64,000 nt of DNA. Origin: Verrucomicrobiota bacterium (lineage in GTDB: Bacteria > Auribacterota > JABMQX01 > JAFGEW01). This document shows, one piece after another, positions 10,460 to 32,933 of this stretch. How positions within the stretch are numbered: the stretch's first letter is position 1; every line of letters begins with the position of its first letter. Position numbers and translations under genes: made by a program. Location: contig JAFGEW010000132.1 in the NCBI GenBank assembly GCA_016931415.1, positions 1 through 64,000 on the forward strand, in the 5' to 3' direction. The notes beneath the pieces were generated by a model, which made no database searches, was not told the DNA's origin, and saw nothing but the letters and a program-made list of their open reading frames with translations.

Positions 10460-11104
10460 CTACTGGTTCGGCGCGTCGGTTCTGGGGTTGATATCGTCGG
10501 CGGTGACTTTGACCTGTTCGGGTTCGGTGATACCGCCCTCGTAGTAGGCGATCTTCTCGGGGAAGTCCCAGCCGAACTGCTTGGTGAACCAATTCGTGAC
10601 GAACGAACGGCGGTAGGTATTGTACTGCCTGCACAGGGTGATCCAGTCGTCGAGGGCGGTTTTGATCTCGTTGAAGCCTTCTTCGACGGCGGCCATGGCT
10701 TTCTGGTAGGTGTCGCTCGTGCGGAGCTGGGGATAGGCCTCGAAGGCCACGCGGACATTCACGAGGGAACGTCCGAACTCGGCACCGAGCTTGGTCAGGT
10801 CGAGGGTTGAGGTCGTCTTGTCTGCGTCAGCCGCCTCGAAGGCTTTCCGGGCGCCTTCGTAAGCCGTTCTCGCCTGTGCGACGCCGATGTAGGTCTCCTG
10901 CTCGAGGAGGCCTTCCTGGTCGGCGAGCGTCCAGACCGACTTCATCTTCTGCGAGCAGGTGTTGACGGCGGCGGCGAACTTGGAGCGGCCCTCGTTGGAG
11001 TTCTCGTGCCTATTGACGAGGCCGTTGTACTTGCCGACGTAGGTGAAGGCGAAGACCGCGCCCACCACGAGTAGAATCACAATGATGATGACAAGCGCTT
11101 TCAC
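10460..11104 (-). CDS. lemA: LemA family protein
   Basis: 214 residues with an N-terminal membrane anchor (ALVIIIVILLVVGAVFAFTYV), followed by the YNGLVNRHENSNEGRSKFAAAVNTC helix and further long helices (RTAYEGARKAFEAAD, LRTSDTYQKAMAAVEEGFNEI). This matches LemA proteins, membrane-anchored helical-bundle proteins of unclear role that are often encoded beside TPM-domain proteins, as here. The start is GTG and overlaps the stop of the upstream TPM gene (GTGA), so translation is probably coupled. It is the last gene of the operon that begins with two helical secreted proteins and a radical SAM enzyme. Confidence 0.88.
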   Translation of the reverse strand: MKALVIIIVILLVVGAVFAFTYVGKYNGLVNRHENSNEGRSKFAAAVNTCSQKMKSVWTLADQEGLLEQETYIGVAQARTAYEGARKAFEAADADKTTSTLDLTKLGAEFGRSLVNVRVAFEAYPQLRTSDTYQKAMAAVEEGFNEIKTALDDWITLCRQYNTYRRSFVTNWFTKQFGWDFPEKIAYYEGGITEPEQVKVTADDINPRTDAPNQ

Positions 11105-11673
11105 TGTCCTGCTCCTTTCTTGCTGTAGAGGTGTCGGAGCTGTTCGTCGGTCCGGCGCACGATCTCGAGCACGCCGGTGTCGTAGTTGCCGAAGTTCAGA
11201 TACTCCTTGGCCGCGTTCATGATGTCAACCATGTGGCTGGAGGTGAGCCTGGGCAGGCCACGGCCGATCGAGTAGGTCATCTTCTCATCAGCGTCGGGGC
11301 GGATCAGCCAGACGACGCCGTTGTTGCCGCCCGCGGTGCTCAAGCCTTTCTTACCAAGCCTGAGCCAGCGGCCGTAGTGCGTGGCGTAGTCGGACGGGTG
11401 CTTGATGCCGTTCTGGATGAGCACGACGACCTCGGCGATGCCATCATCCTGGAGTCCTTGGCAGATGCGGCCGGCTTCTGCTATGGCGCCCGTCTCCATG
11501 ACGCCGGCGTTATCGAGGACCCAGGAATCGGTCAGCGCGGTGAACGGGGGATCGCCCTTGGGGACGGAGGCATTCGTGTCCGTCCCGTCGTGATCGTTCT
11601 GCTGGCAGCATCCGGGCAGGATCGCCACCAGGACAGCGAGCGCAACGATGTACAGTGCATGTGAGCGTTTCAT
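11101..11673 (-). CDS. TPM-domain lipoprotein (YgcG-like)
   Basis: 190 residues. N-terminal lipoprotein signal with a lipobox-like ILPGC followed by a second Cys, then a TPM domain (DSWVLDNAGVM near residue 50, EVVVLIQNGIKHPSDYA, the GVVWLIRPDADEKMTYSIGRG core). TPM domains occur in extracytoplasmic proteins implicated in envelope or photosystem maintenance; a molecular role is not settled. Its ATG overlaps the stop of the upstream gene (ATGA), and its own stop overlaps the start of lemA, so the three genes are tightly coupled. Confidence 0.85.
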   Translation of the reverse strand: MKRSHALYIVALAVLVAILPGCCQQNDHDGTDTNASVPKGDPPFTALTDSWVLDNAGVMETGAIAEAGRICQGLQDDGIAEVVVLIQNGIKHPSDYATHYGRWLRLGKKGLSTAGGNNGVVWLIRPDADEKMTYSIGRGLPRLTSSHMVDIMNAAKEYLNFGNYDTGVLEIVRRTDEQLRHLYSKKGAGQ

Positions 11674-12686
11674 TCCGCGCGTACTCCTTTTCGGAGAGGG
11701 CACGTATCCTTCATGTCGCAGTCTTTGCAGAGCGGACACGTGTAGGTGAGCTTGCGGTCGCAGCCTGCGCCGCCGCCACCGGCACACGCGCAGGCGCACG
11801 CGCAGCCGGCACAGGCACACGCGCAGGCACAGGAGAACGACCGGCCACCGAAGCCTCCTCCCCCGCCCGTGCGGACGCGGCGCGAGGCGGAGCCTCCACC
11901 GCTCCCGCCGCGGTAGATGTCGCCACCGCGGCCGTACGTGCCGCGCGAGCGCACCCCGGCGACAATGATGGCGACAAGCAGCGCCGCAAACCCGCCGAGC
12001 AGGAGCACAATGACCAGTACGGCGGGCCACGTTGCGGCTCGCGTCCTGAGCTGCGACTCGCCGATCCCGCGCGGGAAGAGCTTTCTGGGAAAGGAGACCG
12101 AGAGATTGAACCGCTCCCCACGCGCCAGGGCGGTCTTCTCCCAGATCATGCTTTGGCCTTCGACACGCGTCGGGCGAGGTTTGGCGGTGACGGTGTCGAG
12201 CTTGGCGAAGAAGAAGATCTCGACACGCAACCTGTCGGTCTCGGCGCGGTCGTACCAGCCGGGGGTGAAGTCGAGGTGATAGCTGTCCTTGTCGGCCCAG
12301 AACAGCTTGTTCTGGACGATGGAGAAGCCAACCTCGAAGGTTTCGCCCGGCCGGTAGTCTTTGTCGAGGTCGATGCGCACACCCGACCAGTCGCCGCTGC
12401 TCGCGTGCGTGATGCTGCGGACGTTGCCGGTGTTCTTTCCGCTGACGGTCAAGAAGGTGCTGTTCGGCGTGCCGACAGTGATCCACGGGATGTGGCCACC
12501 GGTGACAGACCACTTCTGGTAATAGGCGATCTCGACCGCGCCGTCGGACCTCGGCGTGAGCTTCACTGAGTAGTCGAGGATCTTATACGTGCCGGTATCG
12601 CCGGAAGCGACCGCGGTATGGACGGGGAGACAGAACAGCAACGCCAGTCCCAGCAGGCAGGCGTATCTGGTTGTATTGTGACCCAT
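11670..12686 (-). CDS. membrane protein with alternating Cys-Ala tail
   Basis: 338 residues. Signal peptide (about 1-28), a beta-rich exported domain resembling DUF2207-type proteins (YKILDYSVKLTPRSDGAVEI; GETFEVGFSIVQNKLFW), a transmembrane helix (PAVLVIVLLLGGFAALLVAIIVAG, about 218-245), then a Gly/Ser/Arg-rich tail. The tail contains the strictly alternating tract CACACACAGCACACACA (residues 286-302) and ends with CPLCKDCDMKDTC. In related proteins this region is normally a plain Gly-rich low-complexity tail. With a cleaved signal and one TM helix, the tail should face the cytoplasm. The gene starts 5 bp after a radical SAM/SPASM gene and overlaps a TPM gene, so the tract is a candidate substrate for that enzyme. 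That link is inference. Confidence 0.85.
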   Translation of the reverse strand: MGHNTTRYACLLGLALLFCLPVHTAVASGDTGTYKILDYSVKLTPRSDGAVEIAYYQKWSVTGGHIPWITVGTPNSTFLTVSGKNTGNVRSITHASSGDWSGVRIDLDKDYRPGETFEVGFSIVQNKLFWADKDSYHLDFTPGWYDRAETDRLRVEIFFFAKLDTVTAKPRPTRVEGQSMIWEKTALARGERFNLSVSFPRKLFPRGIGESQLRTRAATWPAVLVIVLLLGGFAALLVAIIVAGVRSRGTYGRGGDIYRGGSGGGSASRRVRTGGGGGFGGRSFSCACACACAGCACACACAGGGGAGCDRKLTYTCPLCKDCDMKDTCPLRKGVRAE

Positions 12687-12691
12687 GCTGC

Positions 12692-14080
12692 TTATTCCTG
12701 TCTCTTTCCCGACTGGTGCATTGCGTCCATCATCTCGAGCGGACAGGCGCCGGCGCAGACTTCGTTGTGGATGCAGGCGACACAATCGGCGTTCTCTTCG
12801 GCAAAGCCGTGTGCGCGAAGTTTGTCACATATCGGGTGGCGCCAGATGCGCTCCCACGGGTCGGTGAGGATGTTGCCGACCGTGTCAGGCCAGCTCTGGC
12901 AGGGCAACACTGTGCCGTCTGGCTGGACGGTCATGTTGTGGGCGGCGGCCGAGCAGCCCTTGGCGCCGAAGCCAAGCTCGATGGGATTGAGGTGGAGATA
13001 GCAGGTCGGCGAGTACCACTGGAGGTTGACGCCGAGGTCCTGGGCGACGGCGATGGCGCGCTCGAGGATCGTTCGCAGCTCATCGAGGGGGATGCCCTGT
13101 TCGCGACGGAAAGCGACCCCGCGGCCGCTGCAGATGAGCGTGTTGCAGGACATGTTGCGCAGACCGAGGTCCTTGCCGAAGCGCAGCAGGTCGGCGAAGC
13201 TCGACGCGTTCTCCTTGGTCAGCGTCGTGTTGGTGATGACCTGCAGGCCGATGCCGAGGGCGCGTTTGATTCCTTCGACAGTTGCCGCGTGCGCATCGGT
13301 GCCGCCTGCGCCTACCATGCGGTTGTGAATTGCTGCATCGTGCGATTCAATCGTCACTTGGGCGTAGTCGAGGCTGGCGTCGTGGAGCGGGCCAGCCAGT
13401 TCGGCGAGGCGCACTCCGTTGGTAACGACGCCGGTGACGAACTCGTCGGCCTCGGCGACGAGTCTCACGAGGTCGTCGCGCAGCGTCGGTTCCCCGCCGG
13501 TGAAGACGACATTTGGCACGCCGATACGCCAGAGGACTTCGTAGACCCTGAGCCAGTCGTCGAAGGCGAGCTCGTGGAGCTCTTTGCTTGGCCCCCCGGT
13601 GTAGCAGTGCGGGCAGTTGAGGTTGCAGCGATACGTGAGCGCGAGGTCCATGCGCGCCGGCGCGTTCCATTCGGCGGGTCTGATCTCCCTCGCGTCCAGG
13701 CCGGCTTCGACGGGGCATGCACCCTCGGCGATTCGCATCATCGTACCGAAAATGCGGTCAAGATCCGCGTCGATGTGTCTGCGTGTCACGCGCCGGCCTG
13801 GCAGGGCGAAGAAGCGGCCGTGCTTGGCGTACATCGCGTCAACGACGTTCTGGCGGACGCGGGGCGACTCGTCCCCTACTCCTTGCTGGAACTTCCACAT
13901 GGCGTCGATGAGGAGGGCAACGAACTCCCCGGCGACCTGGTCGAGCAGCAGGGGCGGCGACTGGCCGTCGATCCAGAGCGGATTGAGCTCGGACGGATCG
14001 GTCAGGCGCAGGTGGAAGCGGTGCCCGTTGATCGTTGCGTGCCTGATGCCGTCCGTTGTGAACTGCGGTTTCCGCGTCAT
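12692..14080 (-). CDS. radical SAM/SPASM domain enzyme
   Basis: 462 residues. After an N-terminal region of about 160 residues, a radical SAM core carries the CxxxCxxC cluster motif (TYRCNLNCPHCYTGG) and the GGEPTLRDD motif. The C-terminal SPASM-type region holds additional Cys (GAKGCSAAAHN, GTVLPCQSW, DCVACIHNEVCAGACPLEM), as expected for auxiliary iron-sulfur clusters. Family members of this layout often modify ribosomal peptides or proteins in the cytoplasm. The GAGG box favours this ATG; a GTG six codons upstream is possible. Only 5 bp separate it from the gene for the Cys-Ala-tail protein, which makes that protein the obvious candidate substrate. Confidence 0.92.
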   Translation of the reverse strand: MTRKPQFTTDGIRHATINGHRFHLRLTDPSELNPLWIDGQSPPLLLDQVAGEFVALLIDAMWKFQQGVGDESPRVRQNVVDAMYAKHGRFFALPGRRVTRRHIDADLDRIFGTMMRIAEGACPVEAGLDAREIRPAEWNAPARMDLALTYRCNLNCPHCYTGGPSKELHELAFDDWLRVYEVLWRIGVPNVVFTGGEPTLRDDLVRLVAEADEFVTGVVTNGVRLAELAGPLHDASLDYAQVTIESHDAAIHNRMVGAGGTDAHAATVEGIKRALGIGLQVITNTTLTKENASSFADLLRFGKDLGLRNMSCNTLICSGRGVAFRREQGIPLDELRTILERAIAVAQDLGVNLQWYSPTCYLHLNPIELGFGAKGCSAAAHNMTVQPDGTVLPCQSWPDTVGNILTDPWERIWRHPICDKLRAHGFAEENADCVACIHNEVCAGACPLEMMDAMHQSGKRQE

Positions 14081-18668: not shown

Positions 18669-18983
18669 ATGAAACGGCTCATCTTGATCGCGGTGGCGGC
18701 ACTGACGATGACGGCTTGGGTCGGGTCGGCTTTCGCCCACGGGCGAGTGTACCGCTACACATCAGGCGGGTGGCGCTACAGCGACGGACGCGGACGAGCC
18801 TACCACCGCGTCTCGTACGCTCCCCGCCGCACCTACTACAGGACGTACAGGTACTACGACGCGCCGAGGTACTACTACTACCACCAGCCGTCGTACCGGC
18901 GCGTCTACTACTACCCCCCGTACACGTACTACGGCGCCTACTACTACGTGCCGCCGGTGCGCGTGCACTACTACCGGTACTAG
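18669..18983 (+). CDS. small secreted tyrosine-rich protein
   Basis: 104 residues. Signal peptide MKRLILIAVAALTMTAWVGSAFA; the predicted mature chain of 81 residues holds 27 Tyr plus many Arg and Pro (for example RYYDAPRYYYYHQPSYRR and YYYPPYTYYGAYYY). I know no defined family. Low-complexity Tyr/Arg/Pro secreted proteins are usually surface or matrix components; Tyr-rich chains can cross-link or bind polysaccharide, but that is inference. GGAAGGGA lies about 12 bases upstream of the ATG. It sits alone between metF and the STN-like cluster. Confidence 0.8.
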   Translation: MKRLILIAVAALTMTAWVGSAFAHGRVYRYTSGGWRYSDGRGRAYHRVSYAPRRTYYRTYRYYDAPRYYYYHQPSYRRVYYYPPYTYYGAYYYVPPVRVHYYRY

Positions 18984-31369: not shown

Positions 31370-31583
31370 ATAGCGGAGTGATGGTGCCACCGTCCGATCA
31401 GCCTGCGCCATGGTGTTGTGCTGATCGGCGACTCCCTTGGGGGAGGTGCGGGATGTCAGGTTCGCGGTTTTCTGTCACCTGCAAGCTTCAAGAAGGTCTG
31501 CACAAACCCAGCCTCGCCGCGTACCAGTGTGTCCCGTCGTCATGGGTTCTGGTCAGGACTCGTTTTCCGGAGGAGGTGCAACC

Positions 31584-32933
31584 ATGAGGATCCCGAAGAC
31601 GGTCGTCGAGTTCGTGTTGAGGCAGGCGCTGGCAAGTAACAGCCCACTGGTCCAACGGTTCACGCGGGGCGCGTTGAGCCAGTACATCGACCGGGAGCTC
31701 GCGACGCTTCCGGCGCCATCCAAGACGTTCATGAAGCGGCTCATGACACACGGGATCCGCACGATCCAGGAGTCGTCGCCCACCTGCCGCAAGCGGGCCG
31801 TAGAGAACTTCATCATCAAGTACCTCTTCATGCGGCACGAGAAGGCGAAGCTTTTCGAGGCCGAGCACGGATTCCGGCCGCCGCAGCTCATCGTGGTGAG
31901 CCCGAGCATGCGGTGCAATCTGCACTGCTACGGCTGTTACGCCGGGTGCTACACGAAGAAGGACGACCTGCCGTTCGAGGTGTTCAACAGGGTGCTCGAC
32001 GAGGGCAAGGAGATGGGCATCCATTTCGTTGTCATCTCGGGCGGGGAGCCGTTCTTCAGTCCGGACCTCATTCCGATCTTCGAGCGACAGAGCGACATCT
32101 ACTTCCAGGTCTACACGAACGGGACGCTGATCGACGAGGCGATGGCCGACGAGCTGGCGCGCGTCGGCAACGCGGTGCCGGTGATCAGCGTCGAGGGTTT
32201 CGAGGAGTGGACCGACGCGCGACGCGGGCCGGGCACGTTCCGCAAGGTGCTCGACGCGATGCGCAACCTGCGCGAGCGTGGCGTGCCGTTCGGGATCTCG
32301 GTGACCGTGACGCGCGAGAACAACGAGTTCGTCGTGAGCGACGAGTTTGTCAGGTTCTGGTGCGATCAAGGCGCGTGGCTGGCGTGGTACTTCAACTACG
32401 TGCCGATTGGGCTCGAGCCGGACATGGCGCTCATGCCGACGGCCGAGCAACGCAAGTGGCGGCGGCGCGAGTTCGAACGTGTGCGCGCCGAGATGCCGAT
32501 GCTCATGGCGGATTTCTGGAACGACGGGATTCTCACCGGCGGGTGCATGGCTGGGGGACGGCTCTACCTGCACATCAACTGCAAGGGCGACGTGGAGCCG
32601 TGCGTGTTCGTGCACTACGCGGTTGACAACATCAAGGACAAGAGCCTCGTCGAGTGCCTGCAATCCCCGCTGTTCGAGCGGATCCGCTCGAAGATCCCCT
32701 ACGACGGCGACTTGTCGCGCCCGTGCATGATCGTGGACCATCCGAGCGAACTGCGCGAGCACGTCGCGTTGACGGGCGCGGTGCCGACGCATCCGGGCGC
32801 CGACAGCGTCACCACGGTGCTCGCCGGCGCGCTCGACGAGTACGCGGCCGAGTACGCGCGCATCTGCGAGCCGGTGATTCATCCGCGCTTCCGCGACAGG
32901 TATGCGGAGGCAACGGCGAAGGCGATGCCGTGA
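31584..32933 (+). CDS. radical SAM protein
   Basis: 449 residues. An N-terminal helical region of about 100 residues (with IQESSPTCRKRAVENFIIKYLF) is followed by a radical SAM core with CxxxCxxC (SMRCNLHCYGCYAGCY), the SAM-binding GGEPFFSPDL and a YTNGTLID strand. C-terminal Cys (GGCMAGGRLYLHINCKGDVEPC and RPCMIVDHP) suggest a Twitch/SPASM-like auxiliary cluster. The ATG follows an excellent AGGAGGTG box. The target is unknown; no short precursor peptide is obvious beside it, though the long leader might encode one that I cannot confirm. Confidence 0.88.
   Translation: MRIPKTVVEFVLRQALASNSPLVQRFTRGALSQYIDRELATLPAPSKTFMKRLMTHGIRTIQESSPTCRKRAVENFIIKYLFMRHEKAKLFEAEHGFRPPQLIVVSPSMRCNLHCYGCYAGCYTKKDDLPFEVFNRVLDEGKEMGIHFVVISGGEPFFSPDLIPIFERQSDIYFQVYTNGTLIDEAMADELARVGNAVPVISVEGFEEWTDARRGPGTFRKVLDAMRNLRERGVPFGISVTVTRENNEFVVSDEFVRFWCDQGAWLAWYFNYVPIGLEPDMALMPTAEQRKWRRREFERVRAEMPMLMADFWNDGILTGGCMAGGRLYLHINCKGDVEPCVFVHYAVDNIKDKSLVECLQSPLFERIRSKIPYDGDLSRPCMIVDHPSELREHVALTGAVPTHPGADSVTTVLAGALDEYAAEYARICEPVIHPRFRDRYAEATAKAMP

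Follow-up and report, generated by a model that had tools for sequence, protein, structure and literature searches.

Most radical SAM RiPP systems give rise to small secreted peptides. The closest described relatives of the system reported here are the sactipeptide and ranthipeptide maturases (SkfB, CteB, RumMC and TrnC/TrnD), which share with it a radical SAM domain, a SPASM domain and a Cys-rich (here putative) substrate and, with most relatives of its enzyme, an RRE-like N-terminus. PqqE/PqqD, QhpD and anSME are likewise radical SAM/SPASM systems that act on ribosomal peptides or proteins, with other substrates; to our knowledge, none of them acts on C-terminal Cys-Ala repeats. The His-Xaa-Ser (HxsA/B/C), ACGX and TVGG (TvgA/B, PMC9062424) systems have in common with it the combination of a radical SAM enzyme and a tandem-repeat target. 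Finally, membrane proteins of the DUF2207, TPM and LemA kinds show the same succession of signal peptide, extracytoplasmic beta domain, transmembrane (TM) segment, cytosolic part and Gly-rich end.

The locus described here lies in a 64,000-nucleotide stretch of bacterial DNA (the window) and differs from each of these. In contrast to the sactipeptides and ranthipeptides, the candidate substrate is the tail of a membrane-anchored protein (338 aa; relatives about 550 aa), a partner devoid of FeS cysteines is part of many cassettes, and no short leader-bearing precursor, export gene or protease gene of the sactipeptide or ranthipeptide type was seen here. Enzyme families and repeat sequences both differ from those of the His-Xaa-Ser, ACGX and TVGG systems. 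Neither ACGX (TIGR04340, cut-off 400 bits) nor HxsC (cut-off 268 bits) is among the best 25 families of the window enzyme; a related enzyme from the CHSA side described below scores 83 bits with the former, and a relative at locus L067 scores 72 bits with the latter. Unlike DUF2207, TPM and LemA proteins, members of the tail family end in Cys-Ala or CHSA repeats, and their pairing with the enzyme is near-obligate. No model in Pfam or NCBIfam names the tail protein, none passes its cut-off as an equivalog of the enzyme, and no description was found in the open-licence literature on the tail motif, DUF2207 with radical SAM, ACGX or Asgard RiPPs. The system is filed here with the radical SAM/repeat-substrate kind, as an unnamed pair. 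The part acted on would be the terminus of a conserved membrane protein, and it keeps almost the same letters between Chloroflexota and Asgard archaea.

The enzyme and tail genes in the window

Four tightly ordered genes on the reverse strand encode a radical SAM/SPASM enzyme, the tail membrane protein, a TPM protein and a LemA protein (Table 1). The stop codon of the enzyme gene is 5 bp from the ATG of the tail gene, and the tail gene/TPM and TPM/LemA junctions each have a 4-bp overlap; the spacing and the coupling reported in a first-pass annotation of this DNA are thus confirmed. The LemA and TPM neighbours look specific to the window genome and appear to lie outside the conserved enzyme–tail pair. 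Their membership of that pair was considered and rejected, since no recurring neighbour cluster was recognised elsewhere among clusters annotated in part. Two further reading frames of the window may be mentioned: a second, distantly related radical SAM ORF (31425-32930, + strand, 502 aa; 32% across a brief segment) and a small secreted protein of Tyr/Arg-rich, low-complexity sequence (YRYYDAPRYYYYHQPSYRRVYYYPPYTYYGAYYYVP; 18669-18983, + strand).

Table 1. Positions of the locus features in the window
Feature	Position	Strand	Basis or remark
Radical SAM/SPASM enzyme, 462 aa	12692..14080	-	Pfam, alignment A1, AlphaFold, Foldseek
DUF2207-like membrane protein, 338 aa	11670..12686	-	ORF, alignment with relatives, AlphaFold
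Alternating tail CACACACAGCACACACA, proposed substrate	11781..11831	-	Sequence; like motif in 117 other loci
CPLCKDCDMKDTC cluster after the tail	11700..11738	-	Peculiar to the window protein; relatives end at GGGR
TPM-domain lipoprotein-like protein	11101..11673	-	PF04536 2.9e-11
LemA-family protein	10460..11104	-	PF04011 6e-12

The tail protein ends in CACACACAGCACACACA-GGGG-AGCDRKLTYTCPLCKDC...C, with GGGGAGCDRKLTYTCPLCKDCDMKDTCPLRKGVRAE coming after the tail CACACACAGCACACACA, so that the strict Cys-Ala alternation and the C-terminal Cys cluster first noticed in this protein are exact in the sequence. Synonymous codons are mixed within the tail (TGT/TGC for Cys and GCC/GCG for Ala); therefore, the repeat is not a DNA microsatellite. 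The AlphaFold model (pLDDT 66; sandwich blocks mostly 70-90) contains a signal peptide helix, a beta-sandwich at residues 33-200 that resembles ribophorin I and the M1 aminopeptidase N-domain, a single TM helix at 210-245, a disordered Gly-rich linker and, at low confidence, a tail folded into a hairpin that turns at its central Gly. In the relatives, positively charged residues follow the TM helix, and this topology supports a tail facing the cytosol, as had been proposed.

The label "DUF2207-like" stands as far as architecture and alignment to relatives (25-30% identity) are concerned, but not as a Pfam assignment: DUF2207 has no Pfam match in the window tail protein, and in three relatives DUF2207_C is matched with E values no better than 0.19, below threshold. 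The window protein lacks a cytosolic domain of ~250 aa and a conserved TNPxP motif, both of which lie upstream of the tail in relatives, where the protein ends at the repeat. A search of its own phylum found no homologs of the tail protein, and in the phylum-mates of the window genome the enzyme is of the CHSA type. The window pair is a divergent, minimal member of the family.

The enzyme has only the generic Radical_SAM (PF04055, 5e-21) and SPASM (8e-8) domains in Pfam. Its CxxxCxxC motif spans residues 152-159; C152, C156 and C159 are invariant in alignment A1, as are six SPASM cysteines (376, 394, 433, 436, 442 and 446). A putative N-terminal PqqD/RRE-like region covers residues of about 10-120. 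The PqqD family PF05402 is matched by 14 of 17 relatives (best 8.5e-7), the window enzyme itself has no Pfam PqqD match, and the A1 profile matches the lasso RRE TfuB1 at positions 31-101. The AlphaFold model has a pLDDT of 84.9 and a pTM of 0.86, and the nearest solved structures in the PDB (Foldseek) are SkfB, SuiB, PqqE and CteB, all peptide-acting; EpeE also appears in the fold search. By profile, the nearest kin make thioethers, C-C bonds or PQQ and are not epimerases. The enzyme scores far under every equivalog cut-off shown: its best NCBIfam match scores 103 bits where the cut-off is 500, and the families scored include NirJ2, AhbD and PqqE.

Co-occurrence of tail and enzyme across genomes

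A scan of ~85,000 species genomes with a back-translated (CA)4-x-(CA)2 pattern matched at least 119 stretches. Among the matches listed, 117 of 119 hold an in-frame (CA)4-5 G (CA)3 C-terminus followed by glycines and Arg (GGGR), and these 117 tails sit on homologous membrane proteins from roughly twelve bacterial phyla and from Asgard archaea. By record title, the hosts among the listed matches include Chloroflexota, Fermentibacterota, Aminicenantes, Zixibacteria, Coatesbacteria, Acidobacteriota, Edwardsbacteria, Cloacimonadota, Actinomycetota, Chrysiogenales, UBP2 and Asgard archaea. Since the first part of the motif is set by the pattern itself, its constancy there is in part built in, a bias that the enzyme-first tests escape. 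Beyond the pattern, residues that were free to vary are constant at the 117 loci, except for one longer Gly run. Codons vary at all 19 tail positions, by which a microsatellite artefact is ruled out.

With the window enzyme as the query, a homologous enzyme was present in the fetched DNA at 101 of the 116 tail loci tested. Ten of the other 15 were searched genome-wide and the enzyme was found in all ten genomes, one of which (G160) has a tail locus interrupted by masked bases; these genomes thus offer no Cys-Ala tail that lacks a radical SAM enzyme. Among 97 measured pairs, tail and enzyme lie on the same strand in 96 and the enzyme is downstream in 88, with a median of 40 bp between the tail and the point where the matched enzyme domain begins. 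The order in the window, with the enzyme before the tail gene, is the minority order.

Starting from the enzyme, its profile separates into score bands in 298 genomes of the Bellilinea class (Chloroflexota), and the top two bands (E below 1e-150) comprise 43 genomes. A Cys-Ala tail is present in 36 of these by pattern, and in 39 once exceptions are read, three genomes (G385, G442 and G219) having tails shorter than the (CA)4 pattern. The enzyme ends the contig in G169 and G290 and starts at contig base 1 in G319; no tail protein was found in the enzyme-positive genome G168. Since 39 of the 43 genomes carry the tail, the pairing exceeds chance (Fisher p = 6e-34 for the raw pattern count, a value that treats related genomes as independent and so overstates their independence). 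Plain Gly-rich tails beside the same enzyme were not seen in these 43 genomes. Pattern matches in four enzyme-negative genomes (G194, G353, G446 and G294) were read and discarded as out-of-frame chance matches; that in a fifth (G255) is a pure GTGCGC repeat.

A similar situation was encountered in a sample of 196 Asgard genomes, where the tail lies within about 1.5 kb at 25 of 29 fetched top-band loci. Three of the four remaining genomes have the tail elsewhere, giving 28 of 29 by genome; no tail protein was found in the Asgard enzyme genomes G493, G518 and G512. Some Asgard tails have no central Gly, and Val or Ser may replace an individual Ala or Gly in them; the repeat number of the tails ranges from 5 to 8 Cys. 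In the opposite direction, the membrane-protein profile finds 36 of 150 Chloroflexota genomes, every one of which has the enzyme; no homolog without the partner enzyme was seen at this threshold. The strong matches end in Cys-Ala tails and the weak ones are of the CHSA type. Co-occurrence across genomes, the check proposed when the locus was first annotated, thus proves near-obligate across phyla (39/43, 28/29 and 36/36).

The sister system is recognised by its CHSA repeats. Five related enzymes (36-41% identity; four from the phylum of the window and one from another) adjoin DUF2207-like proteins ending in such repeats, for example CHSACHSACHSACVSGGSH, and the third score band of Chloroflexota and Asgard enzymes is likewise found beside CHSA-ending DUF2207-like proteins (loci L009-L013, L178-L183, L207-L219 and L249-L256). 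No tail protein was found in one CHSA-side genome, G187. In a maximum-likelihood tree, all CHSA enzymes fall on one side (100/99), FeS-less partner enzymes form one clade (100/100), and the window enzyme groups with the Cys-Ala enzymes on a long branch (94/97, just under the starred cut-off). The five tree groups need four changes, the least possible; therefore, enzyme clade and tail type match.

Possible chemistry of the tail

The near-obligate co-occurrence, the match of enzyme clade to tail type, the retained catalytic cysteines, a tail that is constant in protein but not in codons, and the peptide-maturase kin support the RiPP-like pair suggested in the first-pass annotation; neither plain Gly-rich tails beside the enzyme nor Cys-Ala tails lacking it were seen in the genomes searched. 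Enzyme and membrane protein probably form a two-gene RiPP-like protein-modification system with the cytosolic tail as the substrate. The tail is likely to be chemically modified by its paired enzyme, whose substrate it would be. The enzyme would recognise the cytosolic C-terminal part of the partner membrane protein, in most relatives via the N-terminal PqqD-type domain, and would then modify the alternating Cys-Ala tail. We know of no modified product of such a tail. The product might, as a guess, be a series of thioethers linking Cys sulfurs to Ala carbons, which would give the membrane protein a rigid cytosolic element, stable to redox change or ready to take up metal.

If the tail is modified at all, Cys-Ala thioethers are the leading guess, for and against which the balance is about level. 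This guess is based on the one-to-one ratio of Ala to Cys that most repeats of both tail types keep, and on known relatives making such bonds; RumMC2 can place a Cys thioether on Ala, so Ala can accept one (PMC8188230). Variation between 5 and 8 Cys, together with the Asgard tolerance of Val and Ser, suits iterative modification or a metal-loading surface over one fixed cluster. Features of the window pair that count against the proposed modification are the missing Pfam PqqD match of the enzyme and, in the tail protein, the absent cytosolic domain and TNPxP motif and the extra C-terminal Cys cluster; so do the genomes noted above in which an enzyme but no tail protein was found (G168, G512, G493 and G518, and G187 on the CHSA side). 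It is tempting, if somewhat speculative, to see in the Cys-Ala and CHSA tails of this conserved membrane protein family widespread, unnamed, built-in RiPP domains of bacteria and Asgard archaea, which radical SAM enzymes would convert into a cytosolic element cross-linked through sulfur, as a poly-thioether or otherwise, with a role inside the cell and not as a secreted product.

The tail could instead be a metal- or FeS-binding ribbon, with the enzyme a metallocofactor-assembly or electron-delivery factor and not a covalent modifier. In an extended strand all Cys would lie on one face, the CxCxC spacing suits soft metals, and the low-confidence hairpin with Gly at its turn, the variable repeat number (as in metal buffers) and the NirJ2, AhbD and PqqE scores point the same way. 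We nevertheless consider this improbable, given that the full CxxxCxxC is kept, that most relatives have a PqqD domain and that the nearest structures are peptide maturases; moreover, the enzyme clade is tracked by the tail type, a better fit to a substrate than to a bystander. Still less probable is that Ala or Cys is epimerised by the enzyme, or changed in some other way free of cross-links, yielding an L/D alternating helix. Radical SAM peptide enzymes do include epimerases, among them EpeE, which the fold search also matched, and a strict period of two residues would go well with a backbone alternating between L and D; however, the sister CHSA tail is a four-residue repeat without alternation, and the profile-nearest kin form other bonds. 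A chance low-complexity tail beside an unrelated gene, conceivable insofar as TPM and DUF2207 proteins often end in Gly-rich tails, is contradicted by the data and hardly credible, since amino acids are invariant with synonymous codons free at the 117 listed loci, and enzyme-first and body-first searches both recover the pairing.

As regards the proposed modification, the tail protein is paired one-to-one with the enzyme, and the sister system swaps both repeat and enzyme clade. This makes chemistry and specificity directly testable, and cultured Anaerolineae include Bellilinea, Ornatilinea, Levilinea and Leptolinea.

FeS-less partners and extended cassettes

Many Chloroflexota cassettes encode a second paralog of the enzyme that has no CxxxCxxC and mostly no SPASM cysteines, with the GGEP region kept. 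At L067 (1626-2888), as at many Chloroflexota loci, the FeS-less paralog has a PqqD-like N-terminus and lies downstream of the active enzyme. No such partner was detected in the window genome. The thuricin CD enzymes TrnC and TrnD are a precedent for a two-enzyme complex in which the radical activity of just one partner is strictly essential (PMC12093266). Annotators gain two families that were missing so far, together with a radical-SAM-like partner that has no FeS cysteines.

Other genes accompany the pair at some loci. At ~60 loci, including L067 (5931-6302), a small protein with TM segments and a zinc-ribbon-like C-terminus is encoded codirectionally and directly upstream of the tail gene. 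The extended cassettes L175 and L176 have two tandem tail proteins and a separate pseudo-enzyme that retains SPASM, and L175 also has a protein-kinase-like gene.
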